Shown here one piece after another: positions 23,663-45,490 of a stretch of 64,000 nt of DNA. The translations under genes and the position numbers were made by a program. Source of the DNA: Paracoccaceae bacterium (lineage in GTDB: Bacteria > Pseudomonadota > Alphaproteobacteria > Rhodobacterales > Rhodobacteraceae). Under the pieces are notes generated by a model that ran no database searches, was not told where the DNA came from, and saw only the letters and a program-made list of their open reading frames with translations. The stretch is taken from NCBI GenBank assembly GCA_024639125.1, contig JAHEJA010000005.1, positions 1-64,000 of the forward strand, given 5' to 3'. Each line of letters opens with the position of its first letter. Within the stretch, counting starts at the first letter, position 1.

Positions 23663-24493
23663 ATGACATTCACCAAAGCACAACTTCCCAAAACTTTACT
23701 GACAGAATGCGATGACATAATCGCCACCGCCCATGCTATGGCGGATGCCGCGCGTGCAGTGATTTTGCCGTATTTTAGAGCAACGCATCTTGGGACTGAA
23801 AACAAAGACCAGTCAGGGTTTGATCCGGTAACACTTGCAGACCGCGAGGCCGAAAAAGCGATGCGCGCGATTTTGGCGACACGACGGCCGCATGATGCAA
23901 TCTTTGGCGAAGAGTTCGGGAAAACCGCGGGAACAAGTGGGTTGACTTGGGTGCTTGACCCCATAGACGGAACGCGGGGATTTATTTCTGGCACGCCGAC
24001 ATGGGGCGTTTTGATCTCTGCTATGGTTGCGGATGGGCCCGTGTTCGGTATCGTTGATCAGCCATATATCCAGGAACGCTTTGTCGGTGGCTTGGGGCAT
24101 AGTTTTGTCAATGGGCCGATGGGTATGCGCAGTTTGGGCACGTCCCAAGTTGCCACACTTGATCAAGCAATCATTATGACAACATTCCCTGAAGTCGGCA
24201 CAGACCAAGAGGCCAAAGGCTTTCATTCGATTGCCTCCCAAGCCAAGCTGGTGCGTTACGGCATGGATTGCTATGCCTATGCGTTGCTTGCCAGCGGACA
24301 GGTTGATTTGGTGATCGAAGCTGGCCTGAATGCCTATGACATCCAAGGCCCGCTTGCTGTGATCGAAGCCGCTGGTGGATCGGTGACCAATTGGTCTGGT
24401 GGTCCTGCGTTTGACGGGGGCCAAGTGATTGCCGCCGCAAACCCAAAGCTATTTGCGCAAGTTTTGCCATTGCTAACGCCTTTTGCAAACTGA
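23663..24493 (+). CDS. hisN: Inositol-monophosphatase-family protein, probable histidinol-phosphatase HisN
   Basis: A 276-residue Mg-dependent phosphatase. GEEFGKT is the first metal-binding motif, and WVLDPIDGTRGFISG is the IMP signature (DPIDGTxxF). The C-terminal YDIQGPLAVIEAAGG supplies the third acidic ligand. The DPIDGTRGFISG form with TPTWG is characteristic of HisN-type histidinol-phosphatases, which complete histidine synthesis in actinobacteria and many alphaproteobacteria. Specificity within the family is still an inference. It stands 8 bases upstream of the 8-oxoguanine deaminase gene on the same strand. Confidence 0.82.
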   Translation: MTFTKAQLPKTLLTECDDIIATAHAMADAARAVILPYFRATHLGTENKDQSGFDPVTLADREAEKAMRAILATRRPHDAIFGEEFGKTAGTSGLTWVLDPIDGTRGFISGTPTWGVLISAMVADGPVFGIVDQPYIQERFVGGLGHSFVNGPMGMRSLGTSQVATLDQAIIMTTFPEVGTDQEAKGFHSIASQAKLVRYGMDCYAYALLASGQVDLVIEAGLNAYDIQGPLAVIEAAGGSVTNWSGGPAFDGGQVIAAANPKLFAQVLPLLTPFAN

Positions 24494-24501
24494 GGTAGGT
24501 C

Positions 24502-25839
24502 ATGTCACAGATTTTGATTAAAAACGCTGATACCATTTTGACAATGGATGACGATCGTCGCGAATTGACAGGAGCAGATATTCGGCTCAAGGACGGCGTG
24601 ATTACGGCGATTGGGACCCTGGAGCCGCAGGATGAGGATGTACTTGTATCCGCCAAAGGCTGTGTTGTGACACCTGGTTTGGTGAATACGCATCATCACT
24701 TATATCAGTCGCTGACGCGTGCGGTGCCCGGTGGCCAAGATGCGCTTTTGTTTGGCTGGCTTCAAACGCTTTATCCGATTTGGGCGAAATTTGGCCCCGA
24801 AGAAATGCGTGTGTCTGCGATGGTTGGCTTGGCTGAATTGGCCTTGTCGGGCTGCTCTATGAGCTCGGATCATTTGTACCTTTATCCAAACGGGTCGCGA
24901 TTGGACGACACTGTCGAGGCGGCTCAGGAAATAGGTTTGCGTTTTTTCCCAACGCGCGGCGCAATGAGCATCGGGGAAAGCGATGGTGGCTTGCCGCCTG
25001 ATCATCTTGTTGAACAAGAAAGTGCCATCCTAGAAGACTGTATTCGTGTCGTGGACAAATTTCATGATGCCTCTGAAAGTTCGATGGTGCGCGTGGGGAT
25101 CGCGCCGTGTTCGCCGTTTTCGGTCAGCCGCGATTTGATGCGGGATGCGGCTGTGTTGGCGCGGGATAAACGTGTGTTTCTTCATACACATTTGGCCGAA
25201 AATGAAGAAGATATTGCATATTCATTAGAAAAATTTGGCTGTCGTCCGGGGCAATATGCCGAAGATTTGGGCTGGACTGGGGACGATGTGTGGCATGCGC
25301 ATTGTGTGAAATTGGACGGCAAGGAAATTGATCTCTTTGCGCGCAGCGGAACAGGCGTTGCACATTGTCCGTGTTCTAATTGTCGCTTGGGTTCTGGTAT
25401 TGCGCCGGTGCGGGGGATGCGGGATGCCGGTGTCAAAGTTGGCTTGGGCGTTGATGGGTCTGCCAGCAACGACGCGGGCAATTTGATGTCTGAAGTGCGT
25501 CAAACCATGTTGTTGCAGCGTGTCTCGCTTGGGGCGGATGCCATGAGCGCCCGAGAAGCGTTGGAAATCGGAACGCGCGGTGGGGCCGATGTTTTGGGAC
25601 GCCCTGAATGTGGTCGTCTTGCGGTCGGGAAACGCGCAGATGTCGCGATTTGGGACGTCAGCGGCATTGAAAGCGCCGGAAGCTGGGATCCAGCAGCTTT
25701 GGTGCTTGCTGGGCCGCAAAAGGTGCGTTCACTGTTTGTCGAAGGTCGCCAGATCGTGCGCGATTGGCAGCTGGTCACCCAAGATATTCAGCAATTGATC
25801 GCGCATCAAAATAGATTGGCACGCCGGCTTATTGGGTAA
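24502..25839 (+). CDS. 8-oxoguanine deaminase
   Basis: An amidohydrolase of 445 residues in the cytosine/8-oxoguanine deaminase group (related to atzB). It would deaminate 8-oxoguanine to urate, clearing oxidised purine bases. Metal and catalytic motifs are visible: VNTHHHLYQSLTRAVPGGQD (HxH plus substrate loop), FLHTHLAENEED, VWHAHCVKLDGKE and GLGVDGSASNDAG. The long DALLFGWLQTLYPIWAKF segment matches characterised 8-oxoguanine deaminases. GAGGTAGGTC precedes the ATG. Its last 11 bases overlap the convergent guanine deaminase gene, which fits a shared purine-catabolic role. Confidence 0.85.
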   Translation: MSQILIKNADTILTMDDDRRELTGADIRLKDGVITAIGTLEPQDEDVLVSAKGCVVTPGLVNTHHHLYQSLTRAVPGGQDALLFGWLQTLYPIWAKFGPEEMRVSAMVGLAELALSGCSMSSDHLYLYPNGSRLDDTVEAAQEIGLRFFPTRGAMSIGESDGGLPPDHLVEQESAILEDCIRVVDKFHDASESSMVRVGIAPCSPFSVSRDLMRDAAVLARDKRVFLHTHLAENEEDIAYSLEKFGCRPGQYAEDLGWTGDDVWHAHCVKLDGKEIDLFARSGTGVAHCPCSNCRLGSGIAPVRGMRDAGVKVGLGVDGSASNDAGNLMSEVRQTMLLQRVSLGADAMSAREALEIGTRGGADVLGRPECGRLAVGKRADVAIWDVSGIESAGSWDPAALVLAGPQKVRSLFVEGRQIVRDWQLVTQDIQQLIAHQNRLARRLIG

Positions 25840-38483: not shown

Positions 38484-38696
38484 ATGATGACAACTCATGA
38501 AATATATGCGCTTTCACCTGCCTTGATTTCTGATGATGACAACGCAAAGCATTTTTCGAACTTGAAGGCCATGTATTCACACTTTGACCAAGTTCGTGGT
38601 GCATCTGATCATTCTGATCACAGATCGGATGAACAATTGGATCAGGTTTGTAATTTGCTTCGTCGGCAACTTAACCGACTGGAACGCATGAACTAG
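38484..38696 (+). CDS. Hypothetical 70-residue protein
   Basis: A small soluble protein beginning MMTTHEIYALSPALISDDDN and ending LLRRQLNRLERMN. It is predicted largely helical, with a histidine/aspartate-rich middle (SDHSDHRSDEQLD). AGGAG lies six bases before the ATG, a stronger start than the antisense frame over the same bases. Its stop overlaps the end of the convergent pccR gene by 4 bases. I do not recognise a family. Confidence 0.6.
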   Translation: MMTTHEIYALSPALISDDDNAKHFSNLKAMYSHFDQVRGASDHSDHRSDEQLDQVCNLLRRQLNRLERMN

Positions 38697-40093
38697 CTCA
38701 CGCGATACGGTAGCTTTTCCCGTTGGAATGGGTCGACGCTAAGTTGACGTTCCAACGGTGGTACAGAGCGTTGGTGACACTCACGTCGTTCACACAAGCG
38801 ACACGAAATCCCAATCGGCTCATAGGCTTCTGGATTGTTGATATCCATTGTATCGGTATATACCAATTCATTCGCATGACGAATTTCACACCCCAAAGCG
38901 ATTGCAAAACGCGGAGTGGGTGCGCCAAACGACCCCCCAGATTTAGAAACCTCACAAGCAAGTGAAATATAGCGAACCCCATCGGGTGTTTCGGCCAATT
39001 GTCGCAAAAACCGACCCGGCGTTTCAAAGGCTTGGTGAACATTCCACAGCGGACACGCCCCGCCAAATCGTGCAAATTGTAGCCGCGTGGCAGAATGGCG
39101 TTTTGTTATTGTGCCAGCTTGGTCAACGCGAACGAAAAAGAATGGCACACCTTTGGCTTCTGGACGTTGCATCGTGGACAAGCGATGCGCCACTTGTTCC
39201 AGTGATACACCGAATATACGGGTCAACCGTTCCAGATCATGACGTTCTTCGCGCGCTGTATCCAAAAACTGTGCATAGGGCATCATTGCGGCGCCAGCAT
39301 AGTAGTTTGCCAAACCAATTTTTGCGATATCACGGGCCTGTGGGCTATGAAACCGTGCAAAGTCCAAGGTTGCTTCGAATAGCTTGTCTTGGGTCATGAG
39401 CGCAAGTTGTAGTAATAATTGAAACGTCTGCGTCGGCGCTGCAGCTTGATTAGATAATGTCAGGGTGTTGGTGCTTGCGTCAAACCGTCTGATATCTGTC
39501 GTATCGATGAACCGTATATGGACCCCAAGTGTTTCCAGCATTGTGATCGTTTTTGCACGCACCCAGTCCGGGCTATTGCGTCCTTTTGAAAATTGCTCGG
39601 CTGCGCGATCCACGGCATCGATGTAGTTGTCGCAATAGTGGAAAAAATCGCGCACTTCTTCCCAAGGCGAGGCTTGCAATTTGGCGCTGCTGTTCCCCAA
39701 AGCTTCGTCCAAGGTCGCAAGCCGTTCTTGGGTTTGTCGATAGGCTCGGTGAAGTTCCAGAAATGCCCGCGCAAACATCGGAACATTGGTGGCTGCAAGC
39801 CTAAGATCAGAAACAGGTGGCACGGTTTCGGCAAAAATAGGATCGGCAAGGGCTTCTTTTATGTCGCTCAGAATCCGTTCGTTGTCACCCGATGCAAGTT
39901 CGGTCACGTCAAACCCGAATTCCTGTGCCAATGCTAACACAACTGCACCGGAAATCGGGCGGTTGTTGTTTTCCATTTGATTTAGATAGGGCAGAGAGAC
40001 ACCCAGCTTGGCGGAAAATTCTTTTTGGGTTATGGCCAAGCGTTGTCGAATTTCTTTCAGCTTGGCACCAGCGAAAATCTTTTTGACCGACAT
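38693..40093 (-). CDS. pccR: Short-chain fatty acyl-CoA regulator PccR (ScfR family, XRE-type)
   Basis: A 466-residue transcriptional regulator. An N-terminal XRE helix-turn-helix (about residues 10-65; LKEIRQRLAITQKEFSAKLG, NRPISG) is followed by an IrrE/M78-like middle region and a C-terminal short-chain acyl-CoA regulator domain with cysteines (CRLCERRECHQRSVPP). This layout is that of the ScfR family. In Rhodobacter sphaeroides PccR controls propionyl-CoA carboxylase genes in response to propionyl-CoA (established knowledge). Its position beside pccB/pccA and the TTTGCAAATTTGC repeats in the promoter support the assignment. It starts one base after the MFS efflux gene stop, so both share a transcript and probably autoregulation. 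Confidence 0.9.
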   Translation of the reverse strand: MSVKKIFAGAKLKEIRQRLAITQKEFSAKLGVSLPYLNQMENNNRPISGAVVLALAQEFGFDVTELASGDNERILSDIKEALADPIFAETVPPVSDLRLAATNVPMFARAFLELHRAYRQTQERLATLDEALGNSSAKLQASPWEEVRDFFHYCDNYIDAVDRAAEQFSKGRNSPDWVRAKTITMLETLGVHIRFIDTTDIRRFDASTNTLTLSNQAAAPTQTFQLLLQLALMTQDKLFEATLDFARFHSPQARDIAKIGLANYYAGAAMMPYAQFLDTAREERHDLERLTRIFGVSLEQVAHRLSTMQRPEAKGVPFFFVRVDQAGTITKRHSATRLQFARFGGACPLWNVHQAFETPGRFLRQLAETPDGVRYISLACEVSKSGGSFGAPTPRFAIALGCEIRHANELVYTDTMDINNPEAYEPIGISCRLCERRECHQRSVPPLERQLSVDPFQREKLPYRVS

Positions 40094-40094
40094 G

Positions 40095-41333
40095 TTAGTG
40101 TCCCGTCGTAGGGCTGTCTAAAGTGGCGACTTTTTTATTACGCTTGATGACGAGGATAATACAGAAAACGCCCAATATAACCGACCCCCACATTAGCCAG
40201 AGTAATGGAATTTCTGATGCTTGACCGTCCAACGTAACGCCAGCCAGAGCCGACAAAGCCGCGCCGCCACCAATCATTATTGAACTGCCAAGACCCGAAG
40301 CTGTCCCAGCAAGCTTGGGTCGCACTGACAACATTCCAGCGGTGGCATTCGGAATGGTCAAGCCATTGCCTAGACCTACGATTGTCATTGATCCAAAAAA
40401 GCTTAGGGCGCTGCCGTAACCCAGATACGAAATGACAAGCGAAAGGCTTAGACCCAGCAGCGTGGTAACCAACCCCCAAGAAATCATGCGGTCAATGCCA
40501 AAGCGAACAGAAAAGCGTCCCGATATAAAGTTACCAACAAAGTACCCTAATGCGGGCGCGCCAAAATAGATGCCAAGTGTTTCTGGCGTTAGGTGAAAGA
40601 CAACCGATCCAACGAAGGATCCACCGCCCAGATAGGCAAAAAACGCCCCCGATCCCAAGGCCGACGCCATGCAATAACCCCAAAATCGTGGTGAGGTCAG
40701 CAATTCGGGATAGTCGCCCACTTGCTTGCGCATTGACCCACCCGTATCCGGAGCGGTTTCGCCCAAATCCAAATAACTGAGCACTAACAACATTAGTCCC
40801 AAAATCGCGGTTAAATAAAAGCTCGCCTGCCAATTGATATATTTGTCTAAGAAGCCGCCGATAGCAGGACTAAGCATTGGGACAACCGACATGCCCATGG
40901 TGACATAGGCCAATTTGGATCCAGCTTTGTTGGTTTCCGTTGTATCGCGGATAATTGCGCGGGATAAAACCATTGAACAAGCCGCGGTTGCTTGCAGCGC
41001 CCGCAATGCCAAAAAGGTATGCACTGTTGTTGCAAAAGGGGCCAATATGCTGGCAATGATGAAAATAGCCAGCGACCATAGCACCACAGGCCGGCGTCCA
41101 ATAGCGTCGGAAATGGGGCCTGAAAAAATTTGAATGATCGCGCTTGCGCCCAAGTAAACGCCAACCGATAGCCCCATGATCGCTGGCGTGCTGTTGTAAT
41201 GCACGGCCATCTTGGGAAGGCTTGGTAAAAAGATGTTCATCGCCAGAGCCGAAATACTGGCCAAAAGAATAAGCGTGACGATATGTGGTTGCGTGTGCCG
41301 GTCAAATAGGCGAGAGGGGCGTAAGGGTGTCAT
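40095..41333 (-). CDS. MFS multidrug efflux transporter, Bcr/CflA family
   Basis: A 412-residue inner-membrane protein with 12 predicted helices. SALAMNIFLPSLPKMAVHYN, SGPISDAIGRRPVVLWSLAI (the MFS loop 2-3 motif DxxGRRP) and RALQATAACSMVLSRAIIRD are typical of the Bcr/CflA subfamily. It would export drugs or small metabolites. The ATG at 41333 is the homology-based start, though AGGAG is 13 bases away; a GTG 36 bases upstream is an alternative. It lies between pccR and pccB and appears to be the first gene of the pccR transcript, so it may respond to propionyl-CoA. Confidence 0.88.
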   Translation of the reverse strand: MTPLRPSRLFDRHTQPHIVTLILLASISALAMNIFLPSLPKMAVHYNSTPAIMGLSVGVYLGASAIIQIFSGPISDAIGRRPVVLWSLAIFIIASILAPFATTVHTFLALRALQATAACSMVLSRAIIRDTTETNKAGSKLAYVTMGMSVVPMLSPAIGGFLDKYINWQASFYLTAILGLMLLVLSYLDLGETAPDTGGSMRKQVGDYPELLTSPRFWGYCMASALGSGAFFAYLGGGSFVGSVVFHLTPETLGIYFGAPALGYFVGNFISGRFSVRFGIDRMISWGLVTTLLGLSLSLVISYLGYGSALSFFGSMTIVGLGNGLTIPNATAGMLSVRPKLAGTASGLGSSIMIGGGAALSALAGVTLDGQASEIPLLWLMWGSVILGVFCIILVIKRNKKVATLDSPTTGH

Positions 41334-41384
41334 GCTAAATTGAATACTCCTTTCTGGGTAAAGGTCCACTAAATTTTGCTAATA

Positions 41385-41436
41385 TTTGCAAATTTGCAGT
41401 TTGTTATTTGCAGAAATTTGCAAATTTGCGAAATTT
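41385..41436. promoter_or_regulatory. Repeated TTTGCAAATTTGC elements in the pccB / efflux divergent promoter (PccR boxes)
   Basis: TTTGCAAATTTGCA occupies 41385-41398, and a second cluster at 41407-41436 contains TTTGCAGAAATTTGCAAATT followed by TGCGAAATTT. PccR of R. sphaeroides is known to recognise TTTGCAA-type repeats. A TATAAA -10-like element for pccB lies at 41461-41466, just downstream. The whole cluster stands between two divergent transcripts and probably controls both. Confidence 0.75.
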
Positions 41437-41493
41437 GGCTTTCAGCGTGTCGTCCAAACGTATAAAAAGCCCCAAAGTTTCAAGAGGGACATT

Positions 41494-43026
41494 ATGAAAG
41501 ACATACTTCAAGAACTAGAGGAACGTCGCGCCAATGCACGCCTTGGTGGTGGACAAAAGCGCATTGATGCACAACATTCCAAAGGCAAATTGACCGCCCG
41601 CGAGCGTATCGAGCTTTTGCTGGATGAAGACAGCTTTGAAGAATTTGACATGTTCGTTGTGCATCGCTGTACAGATTTCGGAATGGAAAACCAGCGCCCT
41701 GCAGGGGACGGTGTCGTCACCGGATGGGGAACGATCAACGGTCGCATGGTCTATGTTTTTTCTCAGGACTTTACTGTTTTTGGTGGGTCTCTTTCCGAAA
41801 CGCATGCGCAGAAAATTTGTAAAATCATGGATATGGCGATCCAAAACGGGGCGCCTGTGATCGGGATCAACGATTCCGGTGGTGCGCGTATCCAGGAGGG
41901 TGTTGCTTCGCTTGCGGGGTATGCCGAAGTGTTCCAGCGCAACATTATGGCGTCTGGCGTTGTGCCTCAGATTTCTGTGATCATGGGGCCATGTGCCGGT
42001 GGTGCGGTGTATTCGCCTGCGATCACGGACTTTATCTTTATGGTCAAAGACAGCTCATATATGTTCGTAACGGGCCCTGATGTTGTTAAAACCGTCACCA
42101 ACGAAGTTGTCACTGCCGAAGAATTGGGCGGCGCGTCCACACACACCAAAAAATCATCGGTTGCGGATGGGGCGTTTGAAAACGATGTCGAAGCCTTGGC
42201 CGAAGTGCGTCGCTTGGTCGACTTTTTGCCGTTGAACAACCGCGAAAAAGCACCTGTGCGTCCGTTCTTTGATGAACCAGGTCGCATCGAACAGTCATTG
42301 GATACGTTGATCCCTGACAATGCGAATACGCCCTATGACATGAAGGAATTGATCCACAAGGTTGCGGACGAAGGTGATTTTTACGAGATCCAAGAAGATT
42401 TTGCCAAAAACATCATCACCGGATTTATCCGCCTAGAAGGTCAGACAGTTGGCGTTGTTGCAAACCAACCAATGGTATTGGCTGGATGTTTGGATATCGA
42501 CAGTTCCCGAAAAGCGGCGCGGTTTGTGCGGTTCTGTGATGCCTTTGAAATTCCGATTTTGACCTTGGTTGATGTTCCGGGTTTCTTGCCGGGCACGTCT
42601 CAGGAATATGGCGGCGTCATCAAACACGGTGCCAAATTGCTCTTTGCTTATGGGGAAGCAACGGTTCCCAAAGTGACCGTTATTACCCGCAAAGCTTATG
42701 GTGGTGCGTACGATGTTATGTCCTCTAAACACCTTCGTGGTGATTTCAACTATGCATGGCCAACGGCGGAAATCGCGGTGATGGGTGCCAAGGGCGCAAC
42801 TGAAATTATCCACCGCGCTGATCTTGGCGATGCAGAGAAAATCGCGCAACATACCCAAGATTACGAGGATCGGTTTGCCAACCCATTTGTAGCGGCGGAA
42901 AAAGGCTTTATTGACGAGGTTATTCAACCGCGTAGCACACGTCGCCGTGTGTCGCGTGCCTTTGCGTCTCTTCGTAATAAAAAGCAAGAAAACCCTTGGA
43001 AAAAGCACGATAACATCCCGCTCTAG
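41494..43026 (+). CDS. pccB: Propionyl-CoA carboxylase beta subunit
   Basis: Carboxyltransferase subunit (510 residues) that moves the carboxyl group from biotin to propionyl-CoA, giving (S)-methylmalonyl-CoA. [77 protein letters not shown] and [20 protein letters not shown] are characteristic. The start at 41494 follows AGAGGGA; the open frame 36 codons upstream covers the promoter repeats. It is the first gene of the propionyl-CoA operon, directly behind the PccR boxes. Confidence 0.97.
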
Positions 43027-43105: not shown

Positions 43106-43474
43106 ATGGCATTGCCATATATGACCAAGCACCGCGGTTTTCCTGGGCGTGTACCCGGGACCGATTTTCACTTTGTTGTGCGTCGTGCCAATCCCAAAGG
43201 GGCAACCCCCCTCAAGGCATTGCAGCGATTTCGGGACCGTAAGCCAGCTGACAAACGTGCTGACACGGCTTTTGTGCGCGCCTTGATGGAGCATTTCTGG
43301 GATCAACCCTTCGAGCGGGGCAACTTGGATGCAGGGCGCCTGAGCTGGTTGTTTGGTCGTGAAGTCAAGCCACATGATCCTGATACTTTCAATCCAGCAG
43401 ACTACGAAGCACTTTTGGTGTTGGATCTGCATTTGATCAAGGCCAATTTCCCAGACGCCTTTGATCCCGAATAA
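43106..43474 (+). CDS. Hypothetical protein encoded between pccB and pccA
   Basis: A 122-residue basic, soluble protein beginning MALPYMTKHRGFPGRVPGTD and containing PKGATPLKALQRFRDRKPAD and AGRLSWLFGREVKPHDPDTF. There is no signal peptide and no known catalytic motif. AGGAGAG precedes the ATG, and pccA starts 15 bases after its stop. The tight operon position suggests a link with propionyl-CoA carboxylation, for example assembly, biotinylation or regulation of the enzyme, but this is inference. I recall similar unnamed genes between pccB and pccA in related bacteria. Confidence 0.75.
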   Translation: MALPYMTKHRGFPGRVPGTDFHFVVRRANPKGATPLKALQRFRDRKPADKRADTAFVRALMEHFWDQPFERGNLDAGRLSWLFGREVKPHDPDTFNPADYEALLVLDLHLIKANFPDAFDPE

Positions 43475-43489
43475 GAGAGGAACAGACAA

Positions 43490-45490
43490 ATGTTCGATAA
43501 AATTTTGATTGCAAATCGGGGCGAAATCGCTTGCCGCGTTATCAAAACAGCCCGCAAAATGGGTATCAAAACCGTCGCGATCTATTCAGATGCGGACAAA
43601 AATGCATTGCACGTGTCCATGGCTGACGAAGCCGTCCACATTGGCCCCCCGCCTGCGAACCAATCTTATATCGTTATTGACAAAGTCATGGATGCGATAC
43701 GCCAATCTGGCGCACAAGCTGTTCATCCAGGCTATGGGTTTCTATCCGAAAACCCGAAATTTGCCGAAGCTTTGGCAGCAGAAGGCGTTGCTTTTGTCGG
43801 ACCACCTGTTGGTGCCATTGAAAAAATGGGTGACAAGATCACGTCGAAAAAAATCGCCCAAGAGGCCGGTGTTAACACTGTTCCGGGTTACATGGGTTTG
43901 ATCGAAGACGCAGAAGACGCGGTTAAGATTTCAAACCAAGTTGGCTATCCCGTTATGATCAAAGCCTCTGCTGGTGGCGGCGGCAAGGGTATGCGCATTG
44001 CATGGAATGACGACGAAGCACGCGAAGGGTTTCAATCGTCCAAGAACGAGGCTGCCAATAGTTTTGGCGATGACCGTATCTTTATCGAGAAATTTGTAAC
44101 CCAACCGCGCCACATCGAAATTCAGGTTTTGGCAGACGCGCATGGCAACTGTATCTATCTGAACGAACGCGAATGTTCGATCCAACGTCGCAACCAAAAA
44201 GTGGTCGAAGAAGCGCCAAGCCCGTTCTTGGATGAGGCCACTCGCAAGGCAATGGGCGAACAATCTTGTGCGCTTGCCAAGGCCGTTGGATATGCTTCTG
44301 CGGGGACAGTGGAATTTATCGTTGATGGGGATCGGAATTTCTATTTCTTGGAAATGAACACCCGACTTCAGGTGGAACATCCCGTCACAGAATTGATCAC
44401 GGGGATTGATTTGGTTGAGCAAATGATCCGTGTGGCCAATGGTGAACCTTTGTCGATCACGCAGGATGATGTGAAAATCAACGGTTGGGCGATTGAAAAC
44501 CGTCTTTATGCCGAAGATCCATATCGTGGATTTTTGCCCTCAATTGGTCGTTTGACACGCTATCGCCCACCAGCCGAAGTTGCTTTGGATAGTCACGTGG
44601 TTCGGAATGACACGGGTGTGTTCGAAGGCGGCGAAATCAGCATGTATTATGACCCTATGATCGCCAAGCTTTGCACATGGGCGCCGACCCGTTTGCAAGC
44701 AATCGAAGAAATGCGCATCGCGCTTGACAGCTTCGAAGTCGAAGGCATTGGGCATAACTTGCCATTCTTGTCCGCCGTGATGGACCATCCAAAATTCGTA
44801 TCCGGTGATATGACCACGGCGTTTATTGCCGAAGAATATCCAGAAGGCTTCGAAGGCGTGACCCTTGCGGATGCGGATCTTCGTCGCATTGCAGCATCCT
44901 GTGCCGCTATGAACCGCGTTGCTGAAATTCGCCGCACTCAGGTTTCTGGTCGTATGGACAATCACGAGCGCCGCGTTGGGGATGATTGGGTTGTCACGCT
45001 TCAGGGCATGTCTTTTGCGGTCAAAGTTGCCGCTGATACGACTGGATCAACGGTGACATTTGATGATGGTCAGGCCTTGCGCGTTGCTGGAAATTGGACA
45101 CCGGGCGACATGCTTGCCAATATGAGCGTCGACTCTGCTCCTTTGGTTATGAAGGTTGGCAAAGTGTCGGGCGGGTTCCGTATTCGCAGCCGGGGTGCTG
45201 ATCTAAAGGTTCATGTGCGTACGCCGCGTCAAGCTGAGCTTGCGCAGTTGATGCCCGAGAAAATGCCGCCAGATACGTCCAAAATGTTGCTCTGCCCAAT
45301 GCCGGGATTGATCGTCAAAATCGACGTTGAAGTGGGGCAAGAGGTTCAAGATGGTCAAGCGCTTTGCACAGTGGAAGCTATGAAAATGGAAAACATCCTG
45401 CGTGCAGAACGCAAAGGTGTTGTGGCCAAGATCAATGCCGCTCCGGGGGATAGCCTTGCTGTTGACGAAGTCATCCTTGAATTCGAATAA
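43490..45490 (+). CDS. pccA: Propionyl-CoA carboxylase alpha subunit (biotin carboxylase and carrier)
   Basis: A 666-residue ATP-dependent subunit. The biotin carboxylase domain begins FDKILIANRGEIACRVIKTA and has KASAGGGGKGMRIAW for ATP, HIEIQVLADAHGNCIYLNER and FLEMNTRLQVEHPVTELITG. The middle is the BT domain, and the C-terminal biotin carrier has EAMKMEN with the modified lysine at 632. GAGAGGAA precedes the ATG. It works with PccB as an (alpha-beta)6 complex in the cytosol. Confidence 0.97.
   Translation: MFDKILIANRGEIACRVIKTARKMGIKTVAIYSDADKNALHVSMADEAVHIGPPPANQSYIVIDKVMDAIRQSGAQAVHPGYGFLSENPKFAEALAAEGVAFVGPPVGAIEKMGDKITSKKIAQEAGVNTVPGYMGLIEDAEDAVKISNQVGYPVMIKASAGGGGKGMRIAWNDDEAREGFQSSKNEAANSFGDDRIFIEKFVTQPRHIEIQVLADAHGNCIYLNERECSIQRRNQKVVEEAPSPFLDEATRKAMGEQSCALAKAVGYASAGTVEFIVDGDRNFYFLEMNTRLQVEHPVTELITGIDLVEQMIRVANGEPLSITQDDVKINGWAIENRLYAEDPYRGFLPSIGRLTRYRPPAEVALDSHVVRNDTGVFEGGEISMYYDPMIAKLCTWAPTRLQAIEEMRIALDSFEVEGIGHNLPFLSAVMDHPKFVSGDMTTAFIAEEYPEGFEGVTLADADLRRIAASCAAMNRVAEIRRTQVSGRMDNHERRVGDDWVVTLQGMSFAVKVAADTTGSTVTFDDGQALRVAGNWTPGDMLANMSVDSAPLVMKVGKVSGGFRIRSRGADLKVHVRTPRQAELAQLMPEKMPPDTSKMLLCPMPGLIVKIDVEVGQEVQDGQALCTVEAMKMENILRAERKGVVAKINAAPGDSLAVDEVILEFE

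Follow-up and report, generated by a model that had tools for sequence, protein, structure and literature searches.

A conserved MFS transporter gene beside the propionyl-CoA carboxylase gene pccB and a predicted two-box PccR operator

The stretch of DNA analysed here, hereafter the window, comprises 64,000 nucleotides of contig JAHEJA010000005.1 from a Paracoccaceae bacterium (class Alphaproteobacteria, GTDB family Rhodobacteraceae; assembly GCA_024639125.1, 79 contigs). It contains a gene for the beta subunit of propionyl-CoA carboxylase (pccB) that diverges, across a gap of 160 bp, from an MFS transporter gene which is in turn followed by the gene of an ScfR-family regulator (pccR):

38693–40093, minus strand: pccR, ScfR-family regulator of 466 aa (PF09856 ScfRs, 228.5 bits, plus HTH_3)
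40091–40097, minus strand: MFS-pccR junction; MFS stop TAA at 40095–40097, pccR ATG at 40091–40093, 1 bp between
40095–41333, minus strand: MFS gene of the Bcr/CflA type, 412 aa from the ATG; a GTG at 41369 is a same-frame alternative start
41341–41368, minus strand: predicted MFS promoter of the leaderless type; TGGACC (41368–41363), 16 bp, TATTCA (41346–41341)
41385–41400, no strand assigned: putative operator box B, nearer the MFS gene; TTTGCAAATTTGC plus flank
41417–41432, no strand assigned: putative operator box A; TTTGCAAATTTGCGAA, 69 bp to the pccB ATG
41440–41468, plus strand: predicted pccB promoter; -35 at 41440–41445, -10 at 41463–41468
41494–43026, plus strand: pccB, propionyl-CoA carboxylase beta subunit (PF01039 carboxyl transferase, 666.8 bits)
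43490–45490, plus strand: pccA candidate, a 666-aa ORF in the same direction as pccB

The original prediction had placed an MFS gene between PccR boxes and pccR, and this arrangement is confirmed, with the operator spanning 41385–41432 on one side of the gene and pccR following after 1 bp on the other. For comparison we named 80 loci, the best 80 of 587 PccR relatives; the window pccB is 87–97% identical to the copies found in them, and homologs of the pccA candidate are present in many. A 122-aa ORF between pccB and the pccA candidate (43106–43474) had no Pfam match at 0.001. The window PccR scores above the cut-off for both the ScfRs C-terminal domain (PF09856) and the N-terminal HTH_3 domain, and it matches Mycobacterium tuberculosis PrpR (6cyy) with 266.5 bits. 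Its residues Cys402, Cys431, Cys434 and Cys439 are invariant in 11 homologs and are presumably 4Fe-4S ligands, by analogy with PrpR. From the synteny with pccB, we infer that the window pccR is the ortholog of R. sphaeroides PccR.

Within the whole 2.75-Mb assembly, exact TTTGCAAATTTGC occurs only at 41385 and 41417. The 160-bp gap holds five TTTGCAAA octamers at up to one mismatch, two of them exact, and these counts were reached by 1 and 12, respectively, of 5000 dinucleotide shuffles of the gap; the densest 60-bp cluster in the window likewise has five octamers at up to one mismatch, against two or three in 60 shuffles of the window. Carter and Alber reportedly describe a TTTGCAAA-X4-TTTGCAAA motif and are said to use the numbering RSP_2186/RSP_2189; the X4 spacing between TTTGCAAA octamers is absent from the window gap. 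At up to one mismatch, TTTGCAAATTTGC has 25 matches in the window genome versus 3 for the pattern read backwards, which indicates that the palindromic core is common beyond the pccB-MFS locus. One further exact TTTGCAAA in the window (24482–24489, 12 bp before a 445-aa ORF at 24502–25839) may be a chance occurrence, as there are 8 exact octamers in the window with 5.7 expected.

We surveyed 295 genomes of the family, in which PccR was found in 240 (threshold 1e-130), the MFS protein in 268 (1e-60; 27 without a match) and PccB in 276 (1e-200). Distances between the MFS and PccB matches, measured between alignment ends, were available for the 86 genomes that occur in both lists of about the best 150 places each. 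Among these matches, 71 of the 86 genomes have the two genes divergent at no more than 450 bp and 12 further ones at 0.48–3.4 kb; the other three have them placed otherwise, two of these on different contigs. The original prediction had named a synteny survey as a check, and the layout of pccB, operator and MFS gene proved to be real and family-wide; the locus is more widely conserved than a prediction made from a single sequence could know.

On its other flank, the MFS gene precedes pccR in the same orientation in 72 of the 80 named loci, while two of the other eight (L082, L098) begin at a contig edge. The six named loci that have enough flank and no MFS gene beside pccR come from genomes that keep the MFS gene divergent from pccB at 167–318 bp, and in all six of these genomes with a relocated pccR an exact octamer lies 68–71 bp from pccB. 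The MFS match of one relocated case (G536, locus L170) starts only at residue 98 or 101, and this copy may be broken at its start. Additional genes were observed within some loci. Between the operator and the MFS gene, genes of the RTX/M10-C type (calcium-binding repeats) point in the MFS direction at L054:5168–6607, L071:4069–5436 and L105:2942–6131, and ORFs of similar size occupy this position in L059 and L068. Between the MFS gene and pccR, an antisense gene for a LysR-type regulator is found at L048:6697–7545, with antisense ORFs of similar size in L056, L071 and L080.

No PccR match at 1e-130 was obtained in 55 of the 295 genomes, and the 15 of these with a listed MFS place (16 regions) were examined. 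Genome G146 was dropped from this set, as it has PccR fragments and an exact octamer in the gap. Among the remaining 14 genomes, 10 have no PccR match at 1e-20 and 4 have matches of 27–38% identity only. The arrangement did not depend on PccR: the divergent pccB-MFS pair is kept in 12 of these 14 genomes, with separations of 584 and 756 bp in two, and the transporter follows pccB, not pccR. One genome with no PccR match at 1e-20 (G248) also has a second MFS copy, 61% identical, at L119:6004–7203, with no pccB in the stretch fetched.

The boxes are distributed differently. An exact octamer is present in 58 of 60 pccB-MFS gaps with PccR, the other two having one-mismatch octamers, and in 1 of 12 without PccR (Fisher p about 3e-10, a value that ignores shared ancestry). 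The single exception, G191 (L124:7065), keeps one exact octamer with no PccR match at 1e-20, and a one-mismatch octamer remains in G248. The boxes thus go with PccR and the MFS gene goes with pccB. The original prediction had taken the boxes for PccR sites, and they behave as such sites should; on these grounds PccR would be expected to bind the window boxes, and the survey yields a likely layout of the PccR operator.

This layout was resolved with a box-aligned consensus of 49 gaps, window included, that had been chosen for a distance of 66–76 bp to pccB. It contains two conserved units, TTtGCA.aTTTGCAaTTtgC and TTTGCAAATTTGCcgAA, 32 bp apart, with box B as strongly conserved as box A, and a -35-like CTT followed by a -10-like TA (offset 46 from box A) precedes pccB. 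The best-scoring pccB -35 lies 23 or 24 bp from box A in 35 of the 49 gaps; the window's own pccB promoter hexamers are weak compared with the consensus and were not among the promoter candidates listed for the window. An exact octamer stands 68–74 bp from pccB in 49 of 59 gaps, window included. To compare the two sides, one and the same exact box was measured per gap, with no selection on the distance to pccB. The distance to pccB falls inside one 7-bp interval in 48 of 58 gaps, the distance to the MFS ATG in 28 of 58 (middle half 98–108 bp) and the distance to the MFS -35 in 21 of 45 (range 54–130 bp, middle half 63–73 bp). By its position, the operator is tied best to pccB and appears to have a looser but non-random spacing to the MFS gene, in whose control it may also take part. 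We read the gap as probably holding one two-box PccR operator that would serve mainly the pccB promoter, with box A some 50 bp upstream of the predicted pccB start site, where a bound activator would be expected.

The MFS gene seems to have a promoter of its own. A TTGACA-like hexamer (mostly TGGACA) and, 16–18 bp away, a hexamer starting with TA that ends 2–8 nt before the ATG were found in 69 of 88 MFS genes; 200 single-base shuffles gave 3.8 on average and never more than 10, for a pattern that was defined post hoc on the same sequences. It is present in 57 of 71 genes from genomes with PccR and in 11 of 15 from genomes without, as well as in the window. This geometry is that of a leaderless type of transcript, so that transcription would start at or next to the MFS ATG. 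The window copy (TGGACC-16-TATTCA) is a weak match, and an AAGGAG stands 13 nt before its MFS ATG; both make a leaderless start less sure in the window. An unconstrained search for the best promoter on the MFS strand placed it at no consistent distance from the operator.

Two other uses of the sequence upstream of the MFS gene were considered. A conserved TGTCCAT element had suggested the GTG at 41369 as a general MFS start; this was rejected, since the element is often out of frame and lies mostly 36–37 nt before the ATG, where it can be read as a -35 (TGGACA) paired with a -10 that ends about 6 nt upstream of the ATG. A leader peptide encoded from the element was also dropped, because the predicted peptides are not alike and several of them lack a stop.

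The originally claimed control of the exporter gene by PccR has to be judged against these results. In the full form of this claim, PccR would bind the shared boxes to control the MFS-pccR transcript directly; propionyl-CoA would co-induce transporter and carboxylase, and the regulator would act on its own gene through the same cluster. The centre of box B in the window lies about 60 bp upstream of the MFS ATG, a usual distance for an activator; the equal conservation of the two boxes, the clustering of the operator-MFS distance and the lack of a box directly at the window pccR also fit such control. Against it stand the tighter spacing of the operator to pccB, the persistence of both the MFS promoter pattern and the pccB linkage in genomes that lack PccR and the boxes, and the RTX-type genes that separate operator and MFS gene in some species. 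We consider direct control of this kind unlikely. As a conserved feature the claim is weakened at the family level, with 48 versus 28 of the 58 distances in one interval and the MFS promoter pattern kept in 11 of 15 genes without PccR, whereas a role of the operator at the MFS promoter is possible in the window genome. The reading preferred here is that the MFS gene would be driven by its own promoter, as a conserved partner of the pccB locus with or without PccR.

Autoregulation of pccR, also part of the original prediction, is strongly suggested in the relatives, though by another route. An exact octamer lies within 120 bp upstream of pccR in 79 of the 80 named loci (the best 80 of 587 relatives), the last one (L117) having a one-mismatch octamer only, compared with 41 of 3916 stretches of 120 bp drawn at random from these loci. 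In the consensus built from 62 such sequences, from which the octamer-less window was left out, CTTGc and TA flank the box at promoter spacing, so a bound protein would cover the core pccR promoter. The usual layout would accordingly place pccR downstream of the MFS gene with its own promoter and a PccR box between -35 and -10, which points to negative autoregulation through a separate box right before pccR and not through the pccB-MFS cluster.

The window departs from this layout. No octamer at up to one mismatch occurs within 400 bp before its pccR, and neither a box nor a good promoter was seen directly before the gene. The MFS-pccR spacing is 1 bp versus at least 40 bp in the 72 named relatives with the MFS gene upstream, a junction that rests on one genome fragmented into 79 contigs, and the MFS protein extends 14 residues beyond R398, where the relatives have 12 at most and a median of 7. 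These features are most simply explained by a deletion that brought pccR up against the MFS gene. With its own box lost, the window pccR seems to depend on the MFS transcript: the lineage would have lost the promoter stretch of pccR, lengthened the MFS frame slightly and made pccR the second gene of an MFS-pccR operon, so that the supply of PccR and any feedback would run through the MFS promoter, whose predicted -35 is 16 bp from box B. The window would then be an example of an autoregulated regulator gene that has given up its own promoter for a place in a transporter operon. The whole of this explanation, i.e., an operator serving pccB, a separate MFS promoter and an MFS-pccR operon in the window lineage, is in our judgement fairly probable.

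The MFS protein scores 207.7 bits on TIGR00710 efflux_Bcr_CflA (cut-off 200.9), also matches MFS_1, and has an AlphaFold model with a pLDDT of 92.3, a confident MFS fold whose best Foldseek match is the drug pump MdfA (4zow, TM 0.82/0.86). In a second structure search VMAT, SV2, MdfA, OxlT and MCT1 scored alike, so the structure searches show an MFS fold only and nothing about the cargo. The family score and the MdfA match would suit an ordinary multidrug efflux pump that has stayed beside pccB through shared descent and is functionally unrelated to propionate, as would its absence from 27 of 295 genomes while pccB was found in 276. This explanation is somewhat unlikely, given that the pccB-MFS pair persists where pccR is lost or relocated and is found in nearly all genomes examined, and that the residue aligned with MdfA Asp34 is Asn in 86 of 88 homologs versus Asp in 13 of 21 paralogs. 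The Asn (Asn33 of the MFS protein) occurs in 5 of the 21 paralogs as well and is not unique to the pccB-linked group, and Arg111 is invariant in homologs and paralogs alike; the Asn nevertheless hints at a difference from the cation-drug/proton antiporters.

Close homologs of the MFS protein are confined to one family in the samples searched: 14 of 240 genomes of the class reached 1e-75 in the search outside the family, of which 3 are family members and the others at most 42% identical. In a tree with the 21 paralogs, the 97 proteins labelled as the linked group, which include L119, L128 and L129 that were not seen beside pccB, enclose one paralog, with a node support of 0.40, and we do not claim monophyly. 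The protein might also work as an importer, bringing in propionate, methylmalonate or another carboxylate as input to the pathway. The related NCBIfam models include named importers (PunC, FslD), and a catabolic operon adjoins the gene; in contrast, efflux pumps account for the family name and for several of the near structures, and we regard import as quite unlikely.

Propionyl-CoA is toxic on accumulation. The cargo is most likely a small acid or another compound tied to propionyl-CoA metabolism. According to the accessible text of PMC12632250 (2025), pcc mutants of C. sphaeroides are only compromised on acetate, and their propionyl-CoA is possibly hydrolysed and secreted as the free acid, a release for which that text names no exporter. 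Among possible cargoes, propionate or a related acid should thus be tested first, and its export by the MFS protein is a reasonable idea. A stronger version would make the transporter a dedicated safety valve for propionyl-CoA that exports the free acid, propionate or a related one, released from CoA esters as they build up, and that is the missing exporter of the C. sphaeroides pcc mutants, with the regulator of the window lineage wired into the exporter transcript such that the PccR level follows exporter transcription; we hold this to be rather unlikely in its entirety. A transporter that stands beside propionyl-CoA carboxylase throughout the family, even where the known regulator is absent, is nonetheless a specific exporter candidate that is cheap to test, and a propionate-linked transporter is worth testing, not proven. 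No paper on a pccB-linked MFS gene was found in the literature searched, which excluded the founding PccR paper.

Several known systems resemble parts of the locus. In Rhodobacter (Cereibacter) sphaeroides, PccR controls pccB (Carter and Alber 2015, as cited in PMC10370305, PMC6765138 and PMC12632250), and the accessible parts of these citing accounts make no mention of an MFS gene; the window shares the ScfR regulator tied to pccB and differs in that its pccR has no box of its own. The PrpR site of M. tuberculosis, as given in the available text of PMC6765138, likewise has a perfect TTTGCAAA beside TTTGCgAA, but its octamers are 1 bp apart, whereas those of the window abut and the unit is present twice, 32 bp apart. 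The RamB operator of Paracoccus denitrificans consists, in the accessible portion of PMC10370305, of two near-identical boxes with an 18-bp spacer, close to the 19 bp between the 13-bp units of the window, and serves the glyoxylate cycle, unlike the window operator. The transporter resembles MdfA and EmrD (Bcr/CflA, TIGR00710) in its family score over the cut-off and its MFS fold, with Asn at the position of MdfA Asp34 in nearly all of its homologs and Thr in EmrD. Finally, the acuR-acuI-dddL operon of R. sphaeroides is leaderless, its -35 and -10 positioned for a transcript start at the ATG (PMC3017554, accessible part), a promoter geometry like that predicted for the MFS gene; its first gene encodes the regulator that represses the operon, whereas the first gene in the window encodes the transporter.
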